Assembly: GCA_943331105.2 (NCBI GenBank)
Contig: CALQKH020000010.1
Location: 1 to 64,000, forward strand
Length of the DNA stretch: 64,000 nucleotides
Reading direction: 5' to 3'
DNA from: Akkermansia muciniphila
GTDB lineage: Bacteria > Pseudomonadota > Gammaproteobacteria > Burkholderiales > Burkholderiaceae_C
Part shown: positions 3,953 to 8,395 of the stretch, one piece after another
Numbering within the stretch: position 1 is the stretch's first letter
How the letters are laid out: each line of letters begins with the position of its first letter
Made by a program: the position numbers and the translations under genes
The notes under the pieces: generated by a model
What the model saw: the letters and a program-made list of their open reading frames with translations, nothing else
Told to the model about the DNA's origin: nothing
The model's database searches: none

Positions 3953-4723
3953 TCAGATGAAAGGTCGTACGCTGATTTCGGCGCTGTGGATTTCTTGCGC
4001 GCCCAGCTCGGTTTGCAATCGTAACGCACCCCCGCGGCTGACACCCAAGGCAATCCCCTGCTGACCGTCGCTGGTGTGCACACGGCGGTCTTTCAGCACA
4101 TCGCGCGCCTCGAAGCGCTTTTGCAGGGGTGCAAAGCCGGTGGTTTCAAAGGCCAACAACGCTTGAACCAAGGGAAAAGCCAGTTTGCCCAGTGCATCGG
4201 CTGCGGTGCAGCCTGGCCACAGCTCAGACAAGGCAGCAGGGGCTGTGCTCAAGCCTTCTGACGGGCGGGGGCGTATGTTCAGGCCCACGCCGACCACCAC
4301 TTGGCTGCGCCCAGCCATGCTGGCTGCTTCAACCAATATGCCGCCGAGCTTGCGGTCTTCAAACCATAAATCATTGGGCCATTTCAGGCGCACATCGGGG
4401 TGCAAACTTTCGGCCAAACTCAGACCCACAGCCAAAGACAAGCCGGACCAATCTTGCGGGCTCAAAGCCAAGCTGATTGAAAAGGTGAGCGAATCACCCG
4501 GCTGGCTTTGCCAGACGCGTCCTTGGCGGCCACGTCCCGCAGTTTGGCGCTCGGCCACCAGCAAAGTGGCTTCGTGCTGTCCTGCCCGGGCCCTGCGCAT
4601 GAGCTCGCTGTTGCTGGAGTCGATTTCGGGCAGCACCTCAACCGTGAAATCGGGCAGCAGGGGGTACACCTGCGTCCAGATCGTTTCGGCGGGCCATGGG
4701 TGAACCATGCTGACCAGTGGCAT
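3953..4723 (-). CDS. birA: Biotin--[acetyl-CoA-carboxylase] ligase (no HTH domain)
   Basis: AERQTAGRGRQGRVW, LKWPNDLWFEDRKLGGILVE and VVGVGLNI motifs. Confidence 0.9.
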   Translation of the reverse strand: MPLVSMVHPWPAETIWTQVYPLLPDFTVEVLPEIDSSNSELMRRARAGQHEATLLVAERQTAGRGRQGRVWQSQPGDSLTFSISLALSPQDWSGLSLAVGLSLAESLHPDVRLKWPNDLWFEDRKLGGILVEAASMAGRSQVVVGVGLNIRPRPSEGLSTAPAALSELWPGCTAADALGKLAFPLVQALLAFETTGFAPLQKRFEARDVLKDRRVHTSDGQQGIALGVSRGGALRLQTELGAQEIHSAEISVRPFI

Positions 4724-4726
4724 GAC

Positions 4727-5368
4727 TCAGCGCTTTTTGGGGCTGGAGGCTTTGCCCGTTTTATCGGCCTTGACGGCCTTGGAGGCTTTTGGAGGGGTTT
4801 TGGCTTTGACCTTGTCTTTGGCTTTGGCCTTGGCCTTTGCTTTCTTTTGCTTGGGGGTCTTGGGTGTGTCTTTGCGCTCTTTGGGCGACAGCAAGGTGCC
4901 GCGGCAGTTGGCGCTGCCGCACCAGCAAGGGTATTCGGCTTTGAGCTTCTTGGTGTAAGGCTCGTCGATGATCAGGCCGTAGTCGTAGTTCAGCTCTTCA
5001 CCGGCCGCAATGTTGCGAATCGCCTTGATGAAGATGCGGTCGTTGTCCTCGTCGGCTTCACAGTTGGGATCGCAGCTGTGGTTGATCCATCGCGATGAGT
5101 TGCCGCCGTGCAGCGCATCGATCACCCGGTCCTCGTTCACATGGAAGTAAAACGTGTGGTTGGGATCGTTGGGATCATGCGGGTGGCGGTCTTGCGCTTC
5201 ATCCCAGCTGATGACCTCACCCACGTATTCGATCAGGGTCTCGCCCTCGGTGATGTCTTGTAAAGCGAAGACACCTTTGCCATGCACGCCTGAGCGGCGG
5301 GTCTGGATGCGTTTGCCAGACGCACAAGCAATTCGGTGACTGGGGGAGGAAACAGGGGTTTTGGCCAC
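4727..5368 (-). CDS. SET domain protein with lysine-rich C-terminal tail
   Basis: SET motifs GVHGKGVFALQDITEGETLIEYVGEVI, RWINHSCDPNCEA, GEELNYDYGL and post-SET CWCGSANCRGTLL; tail KKAKAKAKAKDKVKAKTPPKASKAVKADKTGKASSPKKR. Confidence 0.9.
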   Translation of the reverse strand: MAKTPVSSPSHRIACASGKRIQTRRSGVHGKGVFALQDITEGETLIEYVGEVISWDEAQDRHPHDPNDPNHTFYFHVNEDRVIDALHGGNSSRWINHSCDPNCEADEDNDRIFIKAIRNIAAGEELNYDYGLIIDEPYTKKLKAEYPCWCGSANCRGTLLSPKERKDTPKTPKQKKAKAKAKAKDKVKAKTPPKASKAVKADKTGKASSPKKR

Positions 5369-5427
5369 GACGTCAAAAAATTTGTTATGGTGAATTCATG
5401 TGGGCGCGTGCGTGAGCGCGTGCCCGG

Positions 5428-5444
5428 GCGCGTGCGCACACGCG
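5428..5444. promoter_or_regulatory. Alternating purine-pyrimidine tract with embedded inverted repeat
   Basis: GCGCGTGCGCACACGCG: 17 alternating bases; arms CGCGTG/CACGCG around CGCA. Confidence 0.5.
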
Positions 5445-5464
5445 AGACAACGGATTGTAATGAC

Positions 5465-8395
5465 ATGAAGACACTGGTAATTGCAGAGAAGCCTTCAGTG
5501 GCCCAAGACATCGTGAAGGCCTTGACCCCGACCTCGGGCAAGTTCGAGAAACACGACGACCATTTTGAAAACGACCGCTATGTCGTGACCAGTGCGGTGG
5601 GCCATCTGGTGGAGATCCAAGCCCCCGAGCAGTACGACGTCAAGCGCGGCAAGTGGAGCTTTGCCAACTTGCCCGTGATCCCGCCCCACTTTGACTTGAA
5701 GCCTGTGGACAAAACCAAGAGCCGCCTCTCTGCGGTGGTCAAGCAGGCCAAGCGCAAAGATGTGAATGCCCTCATCAACGCCTGTGACGCGGGCCGCGAG
5801 GGTGAATTGATCTTCCGCCTGATTGAGCAGTACGCCGGTGGTACCAAGACCCTGGACAAACCCGTGCAGCGCCTGTGGCTGCAGTCCATGACGCCGCAGG
5901 CCATTCGAGATGGCTTTGACAACCTGCGCAGCAACACCCAGATGCAGGGCCTGGCCGATGCCGCCCGCAGCCGCTCGGAGGCCGATTGGCTGGTCGGTAT
6001 CAATGGCACGCGTGCCATGACCGCGTTCAACTCGCGCGATGGCGGCTTCTTCTTGACCACTGTGGGCCGGGTGCAAACGCCCACGCTGGCCGTGGTGGTG
6101 GAGCGCGAAGAGCAAATCCGCAAGTTCATCAGCCGCGACTATTGGGAAATCCATGCCGAGTTCAGCGCCGCCGCAGGCACCTATGCCGGCAAGTGGTTTG
6201 ACCCGAATTGGAAGAAGGAAGAAGACGCTGAAAAGAAGGCCGACCGAAAGTGGACGGCCCTTGAGGCGCAAGCCATTGTCGATGCCGTGCGTGGCAAAAC
6301 GGCCACCGTGACCGAAGAGGCCACGCCCACCACGCAAGCCAGCCCCGGCCTGTTTGACTTGACCAGCTTGCAGCGCGAGGCCAACGGCAAGTTTGGCTTC
6401 TCAGCCAAGACCACGCTGGCGCTGGCCCAAAGCCTGTACGAACGCCACAAGGCCCTCACCTATCCACGTACCGACTCGCGTCACCTGCCCGAAGACTACG
6501 TGCCCGTGGCCAAGCAAACCTTTGAAATGCTGGCCGACAGCGGCATGCGCCACCTCGCCCCGCACGCGCTCACGGCGCTGAACAACAACTACGTGCGCAA
6601 GATGCCACGCGTGTTCGACAACAAAAAGGTGTCGGACCACTTTGCCATCATCCCCACACTGCAAGCGCCCAGCGGCTTGTCTGAGGCCGAGCAAAAGCTC
6701 TATGACCTGGTGGTGCGCCGCTTTATGGCGGTGTTTTTCCCCAGCGCCGAGTACCAAGTTACGACCCGCATCAGCTTAGCTGCAGGCCACAGCTTCAAGA
6801 CCGTGGGCAAGGTGTTGGTCAAACCGGGTTGGTTGGCCATTTACGGCAAAGAAGCCGCAGCCGAAGTGGAAGACGCCAAAGACGGTGACAAGGGCCAGAA
6901 CCTGGTGCCGGTACAGCCGGATGAACAGGTCGGGGTCGACTCGGTTGAAGCCAAGGGCCTCAAAACCCGTCCTCCGGCCCGCTACTCAGAAGCCACGCTT
7001 TTGGGTGCCATGGAGGGCGCGGGCAAATTGGTGGACGACGACGAGCTGCGCGAAGCGATGCAGGAAAAAGGCCTGGGCACACCCGCCACCCGCGCCGCCA
7101 TCATCGAAGGTCTGCTGAACGAAAAATACATGCTGCGCGAGGGCCGCGAGATGATTCCAACGGCCAAGGCTTTCCAGCTCATGACGTTGCTTCGCGGCTT
7201 GCAGGTGGAAGAGCTGTCCAAGCCCGAACTCACGGGCGAGTGGGAATACAAGCTTGCGCAAATGGAGCAAGGCAAACTCAGCCGCGCTACCTTCATGGCC
7301 GAGATTGCGGCCATGACCGAGCACATCGTCAAGAAAGCCAAAGAGTACGACCGCGACACCGTGCCCGGTGACTACGCGACGCTCAGCACGCCTTGCCCCA
7401 ATTGCGGCGGCGTGGTCAAAGAAAACTACAGACGCTATACCTGCAATGGGGCTGACGGCGCCAGCGACGGCTGTGGTTTCTCTTTTGGCAAGTCACCCGC
7501 AGGCCGAACCTTTGAGCCGGCCGAAGTCGAACAGTTCATGCAGGACAAGAAAATTGGACCGCTTGATGGTTTCCGCTCCAAAGCTGGGTGGCCGTTCGTG
7601 GCGGAGATGGCGCTGAAATACAACGAAGAAGAGAAGAACTGGAAGCTGGAGTTCGATTTCGGTGACGACAAGAAAAACGAAGAAAGCGGTGAGATTGTCG
7701 AGTTCAGTGATGAATCGCTGGGCGCATGCCCCAAGTGCGGCAGCGCGGTACACGAGCACGGCAGCAACTACGTGTGCAGCAAAGCCGTACCGACAAACGA
7801 GCAACCCACGCCCAGTTGCGACTTCAAGAGCGGCAAGATCATCTTGCAGCAACCGGTGGAGCGTGAGCAGGTGACCAAGCTGCTGGCCACCGGCAAGACC
7901 GATTTGCTCGACAAGTTCATCAGCAACCGCACGCGTCGCCCCTTCAAAGCCATGCTGGCTTGGAACCCCGAAGAGGGCAAAGTGACTTTCGAGTTTGAGC
8001 AGCGCGAAGGCGCAAAGAAGTACCCGCCACGCAAGACGGCGGCCAAAAAGACGCCGTTTGGCAAAGTGGCCGTGAAGAAGGCCGTTGCCAAAACCACGTC
8101 AGCCAAAACGCCCGCGGCTAAAAAAGCGGCCAAAACTGCCGTACCCAAAGCGCCCCGCAAGGCCGCAGTGGGGACGCTTAAACCCAGCCCAGCTTTGATG
8201 GCGGTGATTGGAGATGGTGCCTATGCCCGCACCGAGGTGGTCAAGAAAATCTGGGATTACATCAAGGCCAACAACTTGCAGGACCCGGCAGATAAGCGCT
8301 CGATCAAGGCCGACGGAAAGTTGCAAGCCGTATTTGGCAAAGACCAAGCCACGATGTTTGAGTTGGCAGGGATCATCGGCAAGCACCTGAGCTGA
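5465..8395 (+). CDS. topB: DNA topoisomerase III with C4 zinc-ribbon motifs, Lys/Ala-rich linker and C-terminal SWIB domain
   Basis: MKTLVIAEKPSVAQDIV toprim start, ALTYPRTDSRHLPEDY catalytic Tyr region, CPNCGG...C and CPKCGS...C motifs, terminal LKPSPALMAVIGDGAYARTEVVKKIWDYIKANNLQDPADKRSIKADGKLQAVFGKDQATMFELAGIIGKHLS (SWIB). Confidence 0.93.
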   Translation: MKTLVIAEKPSVAQDIVKALTPTSGKFEKHDDHFENDRYVVTSAVGHLVEIQAPEQYDVKRGKWSFANLPVIPPHFDLKPVDKTKSRLSAVVKQAKRKDVNALINACDAGREGELIFRLIEQYAGGTKTLDKPVQRLWLQSMTPQAIRDGFDNLRSNTQMQGLADAARSRSEADWLVGINGTRAMTAFNSRDGGFFLTTVGRVQTPTLAVVVEREEQIRKFISRDYWEIHAEFSAAAGTYAGKWFDPNWKKEEDAEKKADRKWTALEAQAIVDAVRGKTATVTEEATPTTQASPGLFDLTSLQREANGKFGFSAKTTLALAQSLYERHKALTYPRTDSRHLPEDYVPVAKQTFEMLADSGMRHLAPHALTALNNNYVRKMPRVFDNKKVSDHFAIIPTLQAPSGLSEAEQKLYDLVVRRFMAVFFPSAEYQVTTRISLAAGHSFKTVGKVLVKPGWLAIYGKEAAAEVEDAKDGDKGQNLVPVQPDEQVGVDSVEAKGLKTRPPARYSEATLLGAMEGAGKLVDDDELREAMQEKGLGTPATRAAIIEGLLNEKYMLREGREMIPTAKAFQLMTLLRGLQVEELSKPELTGEWEYKLAQMEQGKLSRATFMAEIAAMTEHIVKKAKEYDRDTVPGDYATLSTPCPNCGGVVKENYRRYTCNGADGASDGCGFSFGKSPAGRTFEPAEVEQFMQDKKIGPLDGFRSKAGWPFVAEMALKYNEEEKNWKLEFDFGDDKKNEESGEIVEFSDESLGACPKCGSAVHEHGSNYVCSKAVPTNEQPTPSCDFKSGKIILQQPVEREQVTKLLATGKTDLLDKFISNRTRRPFKAMLAWNPEEGKVTFEFEQREGAKKYPPRKTAAKKTPFGKVAVKKAVAKTTSAKTPAAKKAAKTAVPKAPRKAAVGTLKPSPALMAVIGDGAYARTEVVKKIWDYIKANNLQDPADKRSIKADGKLQAVFGKDQATMFELAGIIGKHLS

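Follow-up and report, generated by a model that had tools for sequence, protein, structure and literature searches.

A conserved birA-SET-topB locus with a candidate supercoiling-responsive element between putative face-to-face promoters in the Comamonadaceae/Sphaerotilaceae group

In the window, by which we mean the whole stretch of 64,000 nucleotides that was analysed, a gene encoding a predicted SET-domain protein lysine methyltransferase lies head-to-head with the gene of a SWIB-tailed DNA topoisomerase III, and the gap between the two genes holds a composite element that is conserved in the Comamonadaceae/Sphaerotilaceae group. The explanation that we prefer, to which we give about even confidence when it is taken as a whole, is that birA-SET-topB is a conserved housekeeping locus of this group, that a supercoiling-sensing switch lies between its two face-to-face promoters, and that SET acts on a topology or nucleoid protein of the cell itself. 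A stronger form of this explanation, in which a family-wide and nearly genome-unique Z-DNA switch couples the topoisomerase and SET to supercoiling while SET acts on the cell's own topology proteins, is put forward tentatively. The features of the locus are listed in Table 1.

Table 1. Positions of the genes, domains and putative regulatory features of the locus in the window.
Feature	Position	Strand	Remarks
birA, biotin-protein ligase	3953..4723	-	TIGR00121 154.7 bits, cutoff 83.1
SET-domain protein lysine methyltransferase (predicted)	4727..5368	-	213 aa; PF00856 E 7.5e-26
Lys-rich C-terminal tail of SET, aa 161-213	4730..4888	-	follows the post-SET motif; 53 aa, of which 38% Lys
Putative extended -10 promoter TGTTATGGT for topB	5383..5391	+	family consensus TGnTAnnnT-GAA
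Alternating purine-pyrimidine (Z-DNA-prone) tract	5404..5444	.	imperfect here, longest perfect run 17
Putative -10 hexamer TACAAT (ATTGTA on +) for SET-birA, directed at the tract	5454..5459	-	exact in 74/81 loci
topB, DNA topoisomerase III with C-terminal SWIB	5465..8395	+	976 aa; NF011313/PRK14724 full length
Lys/Ala/Pro-rich TopB linker, ~aa 846-902	8000..8170	+	weak HC2-like composition
SWIB domain of TopB	8177..8389	+	PF02201, E 3e-25 to 2.6e-26

Conservation of the birA-SET-topB locus

The gap between SET and topB is 96 bp long, and birA follows SET directly downstream on the same strand after 3 bp. The head-to-head arrangement, which had been recognized in the original prediction, was confirmed by matches to PF00856 in SET, to NF011313/PRK14724 over the full length of TopB and to PF02201 in its SWIB domain. 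The start of TopB had been placed at 5336, but this position is merely an upstream in-frame GTG, and the conserved start (MKTLVIAEKPS) is found at 5465.

We surveyed about 100 genera of the Comamonadaceae/Sphaerotilaceae group, a large family with freshwater and soil members, with one genome per genus. SET was divergent from topB within less than 1 kb at 94 of the 100 TopB genes, which is well in excess of chance and shows that the adjacency is not confined to a single genome, with the reservation that these counts are not independent events because the genera are related. Among the remaining TopB genes, SET is 8 kb off in one case and missing from the genome in five. In total, SET was found in 96/101 sampled family genomes, nearly always at a single fixed locus, and the matches to SET and topB adjoin in most of the 60 Limnohabitans species sampled. 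The linkage of birA is as tight as that of topB, as SET has birA beside it in practically all of the family loci examined; the triad was seen in named loci of Thiomonas, Rubrivivax, Roseateles, Comamonas, Hydrogenophaga, Hylemonella and Limnohabitans, and SET remains beside birA in the single genome in which SET and topB are 8 kb apart. Because birA adjoins SET throughout, the conserved unit is birA-SET-topB rather than SET-topB alone.

The five genera that lost SET and kept TopB all have small genomes (5/12 at or below 2.8 Mb vs 0/89 above it), and birA and topB are still head-to-head in all of the four examined. At the level of the order, SET and TopB co-occur (21/26 vs 33/84, Fisher 0.0003, without correction for phylogeny). 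In the wider class, no SET-topB adjacency was seen in the SET-bearing genomes checked, most of which are without TopB.

Most of this linkage could be explained as inherited synteny. According to this explanation, SET would be an unrelated housekeeping methyltransferase that is co-transcribed with birA in an inherited birA-SET-topB arrangement, and its adjacency to topB would have no functional meaning. This agrees with the constancy of birA as the other neighbour of SET, which stays when topB is separated, and with the birA-topB arrangement retained in the SET-less genera. We consider it rather unlikely, since the neighbourhood outside the triad is variable on the side of topB, the common composite promoter element is itself conserved, and SET is found again beside topB or gyrB in phylogenetically separate contexts.

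The first of these contexts is a small family of MAGs, in which SET is convergent (tail-to-tail) with topB in 4/4 genomes and is directly preceded by gyrB in 3/4, the fourth being cut by a contig edge. The best-resolved locus has the order dnaA-dnaN-gyrB-SET, followed by topB-dprA in the opposite direction. The trees rest on about 154 SET columns; in them, the SETs of this family form a separate clade, and their grouping in one clade with the divergent-type SETs was rejected (AU p 0.0033). In two genomes of another genus (1.7-1.9 Mb), SET lies directly after gyrB. These other SET lineages are located at the replication origin, where SET adjoins gyrB or lies between gyrB and topB. A rough neutral count gave a chance of 0.0014 that 2/16 lineages adjoin any topoisomerase subunit gene; this value is only suggestive, because the gene category was picked after the data had been seen and both topB and gyrB tend to lie near the origin. 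A neighbour of SET that is shared across the non-triad lineages was sought and none was found. In one gammaproteobacterial locus, a GyrB/ParE-like gene lies two genes from SET; this locus was set aside, as its SET is of a different and distant type. Since SET adjoins topoisomerase genes in phylogenetically separate contexts, a link between SET and DNA topology is plausible from the gene order.

The intergenic tract and its flanking motifs

The SET-topB gap, of which the original prediction made no mention, holds a conserved composite of an extended -10 motif directed toward topB, an alternating purine-pyrimidine tract of 20-60 bp and a TACAAT -10 motif directed toward SET. The element of the window, which spans 5383-5459, is a weaker and imperfect example. 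The TGnTAnnnT-GAA pattern was present left of the tract in 72/81 family loci; this motif had been picked out with a regular expression, so that its logo is in part a product of the search itself. On the other side, an exact TACAAT was present in 74/81 loci, compared with 0.3% of random windows in a null count, and lies 6-12 nt past the tract in all but one of them. At the sequence level, the putative -10 elements stand at both sides of the tract and point inward, which is the arrangement of face-to-face promoters. A sigma-70 promoter scan of the SET-topB gap returned no match.

The tract was found by data exploration and was not predicted; it is supported by shuffles, background windows and a whole-genome pattern search. 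In the window, it has the top Z-like score of the 64 kb by a modest margin (27 vs 22.5 for the next segment), and in other genera it is uninterrupted for up to 56 nt. Of 76 unique family loci, 66 had a Z-like tract exceeding 200 shuffles at p<0.01, and in 67 the best Z-like segment of the locus lay in the gap. A tract score of at least 30 was reached in 48/72 loci vs 9/1715 background windows, and about 6/72 family loci were without a strong tract. For topB genes outside the family, a Z-like tract at p<0.01 was found in 0/18 loci of other families and in 0/2 loci of the small family of MAGs, and in the Thiomonas loci the SET-topB pair was present and the tract was not found. A perfect 28-nt RY run occurred in 15 of the 22 genomes that were pattern-searched. 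Every hit genome-wide fell in the SET-topB gap in 10 of these 15 genomes, two had hits in one further place, and the other three were left out of this tally; the claim that the tract is unique genome-wide depends on this single pattern search, in which the window's own genome gave no perfect 28-nt match.

The position of the element was followed in loci with an altered gene order. Four loci carry an inserted TlpA-like gene in front of topB, and in 3/4 of them the element has remained with the divergent promoter, upstream of the insert. In the genome with separated SET and topB, topB has kept the left promoter together with a tract of 21 bp, and in the SET-less loci a shortened tract is kept in 3/4 and lost in 1/4. 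From the behaviour of the separated genome and the SET-less loci, the element is best regarded as belonging to the entire divergent promoter region, of which topB is the constant member.

The identity of the tract between loci was 0.836 vs 0.802 in unit-shuffled pairs. Because this barely exceeds the shuffled controls, it is suggested that the alternation rather than the sequence is kept. In a simple dinucleotide energy model of the form given in PMC3024258, the B-Z threshold (-sigma) was estimated at about 0.034 across the family and at 0.037 in the window, compared with 0.051 for the neighbouring 200-bp windows. The tract can be classed as a predicted Z-DNA element, being a long alternating run rich in CG/TG steps that recurs across genera and is weaker in the window's species.

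The window copy of the tract is predicted to form strong hairpins (DNA z -1.96), and complementary overlapping leaders would follow from the inferred promoter positions. These points agree with another explanation, in which the tract, instead of being a Z-DNA switch, is bound by a protein or serves as an RNA leader (hairpin or antisense 5' overlap), and in this way regulates topB and SET. We regard this explanation as doubtful, as it is opposed by the retention of alternation rather than sequence, by a mean hairpin z that is just slightly negative against alternation-preserving shuffles (-0.55, with 6/41 below -1.64), and by an Rfam search that gave no match. Since the tract can form hairpins, an RNA or cruciform role is possible.

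The SET and TopB proteins

The SET gene begins with a GTG codon, and its product carries, in addition to PF00856, the catalytic motifs NHSC and GEELxYDYG (ELxYDY in the family pattern) and the post-SET cysteines CxCx4C, all of which are invariant across lineages. On these features it is predicted to be a member of the SET-domain lysine methyltransferases, and the closest solved structures are KMT2/MLL-type SET domains (E 1.6e-25). A second SET gene, which is without the tail, is present in the window's genome. TopB scored 1941.6 bits against NF011313/PRK14724 (cutoff 1088) with SWIB included, and was assigned to this family. The Lys-rich stretches that had been pointed out on both proteins are the sole Lys/Ala/Pro-rich 45-aa stretches among the 116 window ORFs of at least 150 aa. 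Their supposed histone-H1-like character holds for the TopB linker with respect to composition, but the scores remained under the curated cutoffs (HC2 24 vs 40 bits; NF038053 20.7 vs 80).

In the original prediction, SET was proposed to methylate its own tail and/or the TopB linker and thereby to tune the DNA binding of the topoisomerase. The conserved adjacency, the intact catalytic motifs of SET and the presence of Lys-rich stretches on both proteins in the window's genus are consistent with this proposal, but other data are against it. The Lys-rich tail of SET is a lineage-specific extension that is found in Limnohabitans and scattered other genera; it is short or missing in many orthologues, of which many finish at CRGT(M/L)L-APKR, and the tail was rejected as a conserved substrate. 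The Lys/Ala-rich tail of TopB occurs in Burkholderiales both with and without SET in the genome, and its dependence on SET was rejected as well. SWIB was found in 48/100 family TopBs (one genome per genus), and in 52/100 there was no match through SWIB; 20 of these 52 were read fully, and all finish in a Lys/Ala-rich tail without SWIB. The adjacency of SET was indifferent to this difference (46/48 with SWIB vs 48/52 without), and SWIB was discarded as its cause. The specific support for methylation of the tail or linker is therefore gone, and we judge this mechanism improbable; from the functional reading of the pair, the link with topology is the part that stays plausible.

The window's genome also encodes a stand-alone SWIB protein whose N-terminus is AKKA-rich. 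The linker and SWIB domain of TopB align with this protein across most of its length at 52% identity, which suggests that the TopB tail probably originated from a local fusion with a gene of the stand-alone-SWIB type.

Bacterial SET proteins are usually discussed as host-directed effectors. A weak match to the AnkI/LegAS4 SET region (43.9 bits, cutoff 550) speaks for such a role of the present SET, which would then be secreted and act on host chromatin in the manner of BtSET, LegAS4 or NUE. We consider this very improbable, as all effector-model matches are under cutoff and SET occupies one fixed locus in nearly all of the family genomes sampled. SET most likely belongs to the DNA-topology or nucleoid biology of the cell itself and is not host-directed, with TopB, the stand-alone SWIB protein and H1-like proteins as candidate substrates. 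Bacterial SET proteins would gain by this a likely endogenous context, that of DNA topology.

Proposed supercoiling switch

In our preferred explanation, birA-SET and topB would be governed from one bidirectional element, with two promoters that appear to face each other across the tract. Because they face each other, each RNA polymerase would first transcribe through the tract, and the transcripts would overlap at their 5' ends. Transcription of either gene would leave negative supercoils behind, and strong local negative supercoiling could flip the tract to left-handed Z-DNA. The flip may alter the access to both promoters, so that the expression of topB and SET-birA would track the supercoiling state. 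Activation of topB by the flip would be the homeostatic option; the direction is not fixed by the sequence. Counting against the explanation are the imperfect tract of the window and the negative sigma-70 scan, the Thiomonas and other family loci without the tract, its hairpin potential, and the dispensability of SET in the five small-genome genera.

Whether Z-DNA has a natural regulatory role in bacteria is a long-standing question. The locus presents a natural candidate with strong comparative support, which sits at a topoisomerase gene, where the sensing of supercoiling makes obvious sense, and which occurs in culturable organisms.

Comparison with known systems

Searches of the open-access literature turned up no topoisomerase gene for which a conserved natural Z-prone tract had been described between face-to-face promoters. 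No SET-topoisomerase pair and no Z-DNA at a bacterial topoisomerase gene were found there either, an absence that is not proof. In E. coli, the promoters of topA and gyr are known to be supercoiling-sensitive. The present locus is similar in that its topoisomerase gene is plausibly controlled by supercoiling, and it has an alternating CG/TG tract of low B-Z energy; Z-DNA is a supercoiling-driven structure (PMC3024258).

With regard to the proteins, the TopB of the window matches the PRK14724/NF011313 family over its full length including SWIB, without differences in the protein; the family model is silent on the SET neighbour and the promoter. The effectors LegAS4/RomA and BtSET of other bacteria (for a review, see PMC3980110) share a SET domain of the histone-methyltransferase type with the SET of the window, which differs from them in its fixed chromosomal housekeeping context and in effector-model scores that are under cutoff.

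The novelty claimed in the original prediction, that no bacterial SET-topoisomerase regulatory pair had been described, agrees with our searches of the open-access literature, but it has to be set beside Chlamydiae, in which SET, SWIB and a SWIB-topoisomerase have already been proposed as a chromatin-modifying complex (PMC6426960). The chlamydial set of SET (NUE/cpnSET), a small SWIB and TopA-SWIB is the closest known parallel (PMC6426960, PMC2904774). The likeness is that SET, a stand-alone SWIB and a SWIB-fused topoisomerase are found together in the window's genome. The topoisomerase of the window is a type III TopB, whereas that of Chlamydiae is TopA; moreover, SET here adjoins the topoisomerase gene with a common element between them, and the organism is not obligate intracellular.

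Related SET and SWIB genes

At least two SET genes per genome were found in most of the Limnohabitans genomes sampled, and the second SET gene of the window's genome adjoins an acyl-CoA synthetase-like gene. Long KAKTKAK tails were also observed on SET proteins from outside the family (loci L157, 1234-1860, and L257); therefore, such tails originated repeatedly.

The linker-SWIB tail of TopB was likely derived from the stand-alone SWIB protein. In several genera (L072, L086, L089, L304), an inserted TlpA/thioredoxin-like gene separates topB from the divergent promoter region.

Near the replication origin, gyrB is directly followed by SET in two distant Burkholderiales lineages. A distant gammaproteobacterial SET-like protein (L183) has a GyrB/ParE-like gene and one for an EngB-like GTPase as neighbours.

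Related SET and SWIB features (G000, window's genome; C, contig; L, compared locus)
Feature	Location	Detail
Stand-alone SWIB protein, AKKA-rich N-terminus	G000:C1:113066-113281 (L305 1495-1899, -)	
Second SET protein of the window's genome	G000:C7:79149-79454 (L002 1447-1902)	151 aa, without Lys tail
SET genes immediately 3' of gyrB	L148 5120-5614; L150 5398-5844; L184 8339-8779
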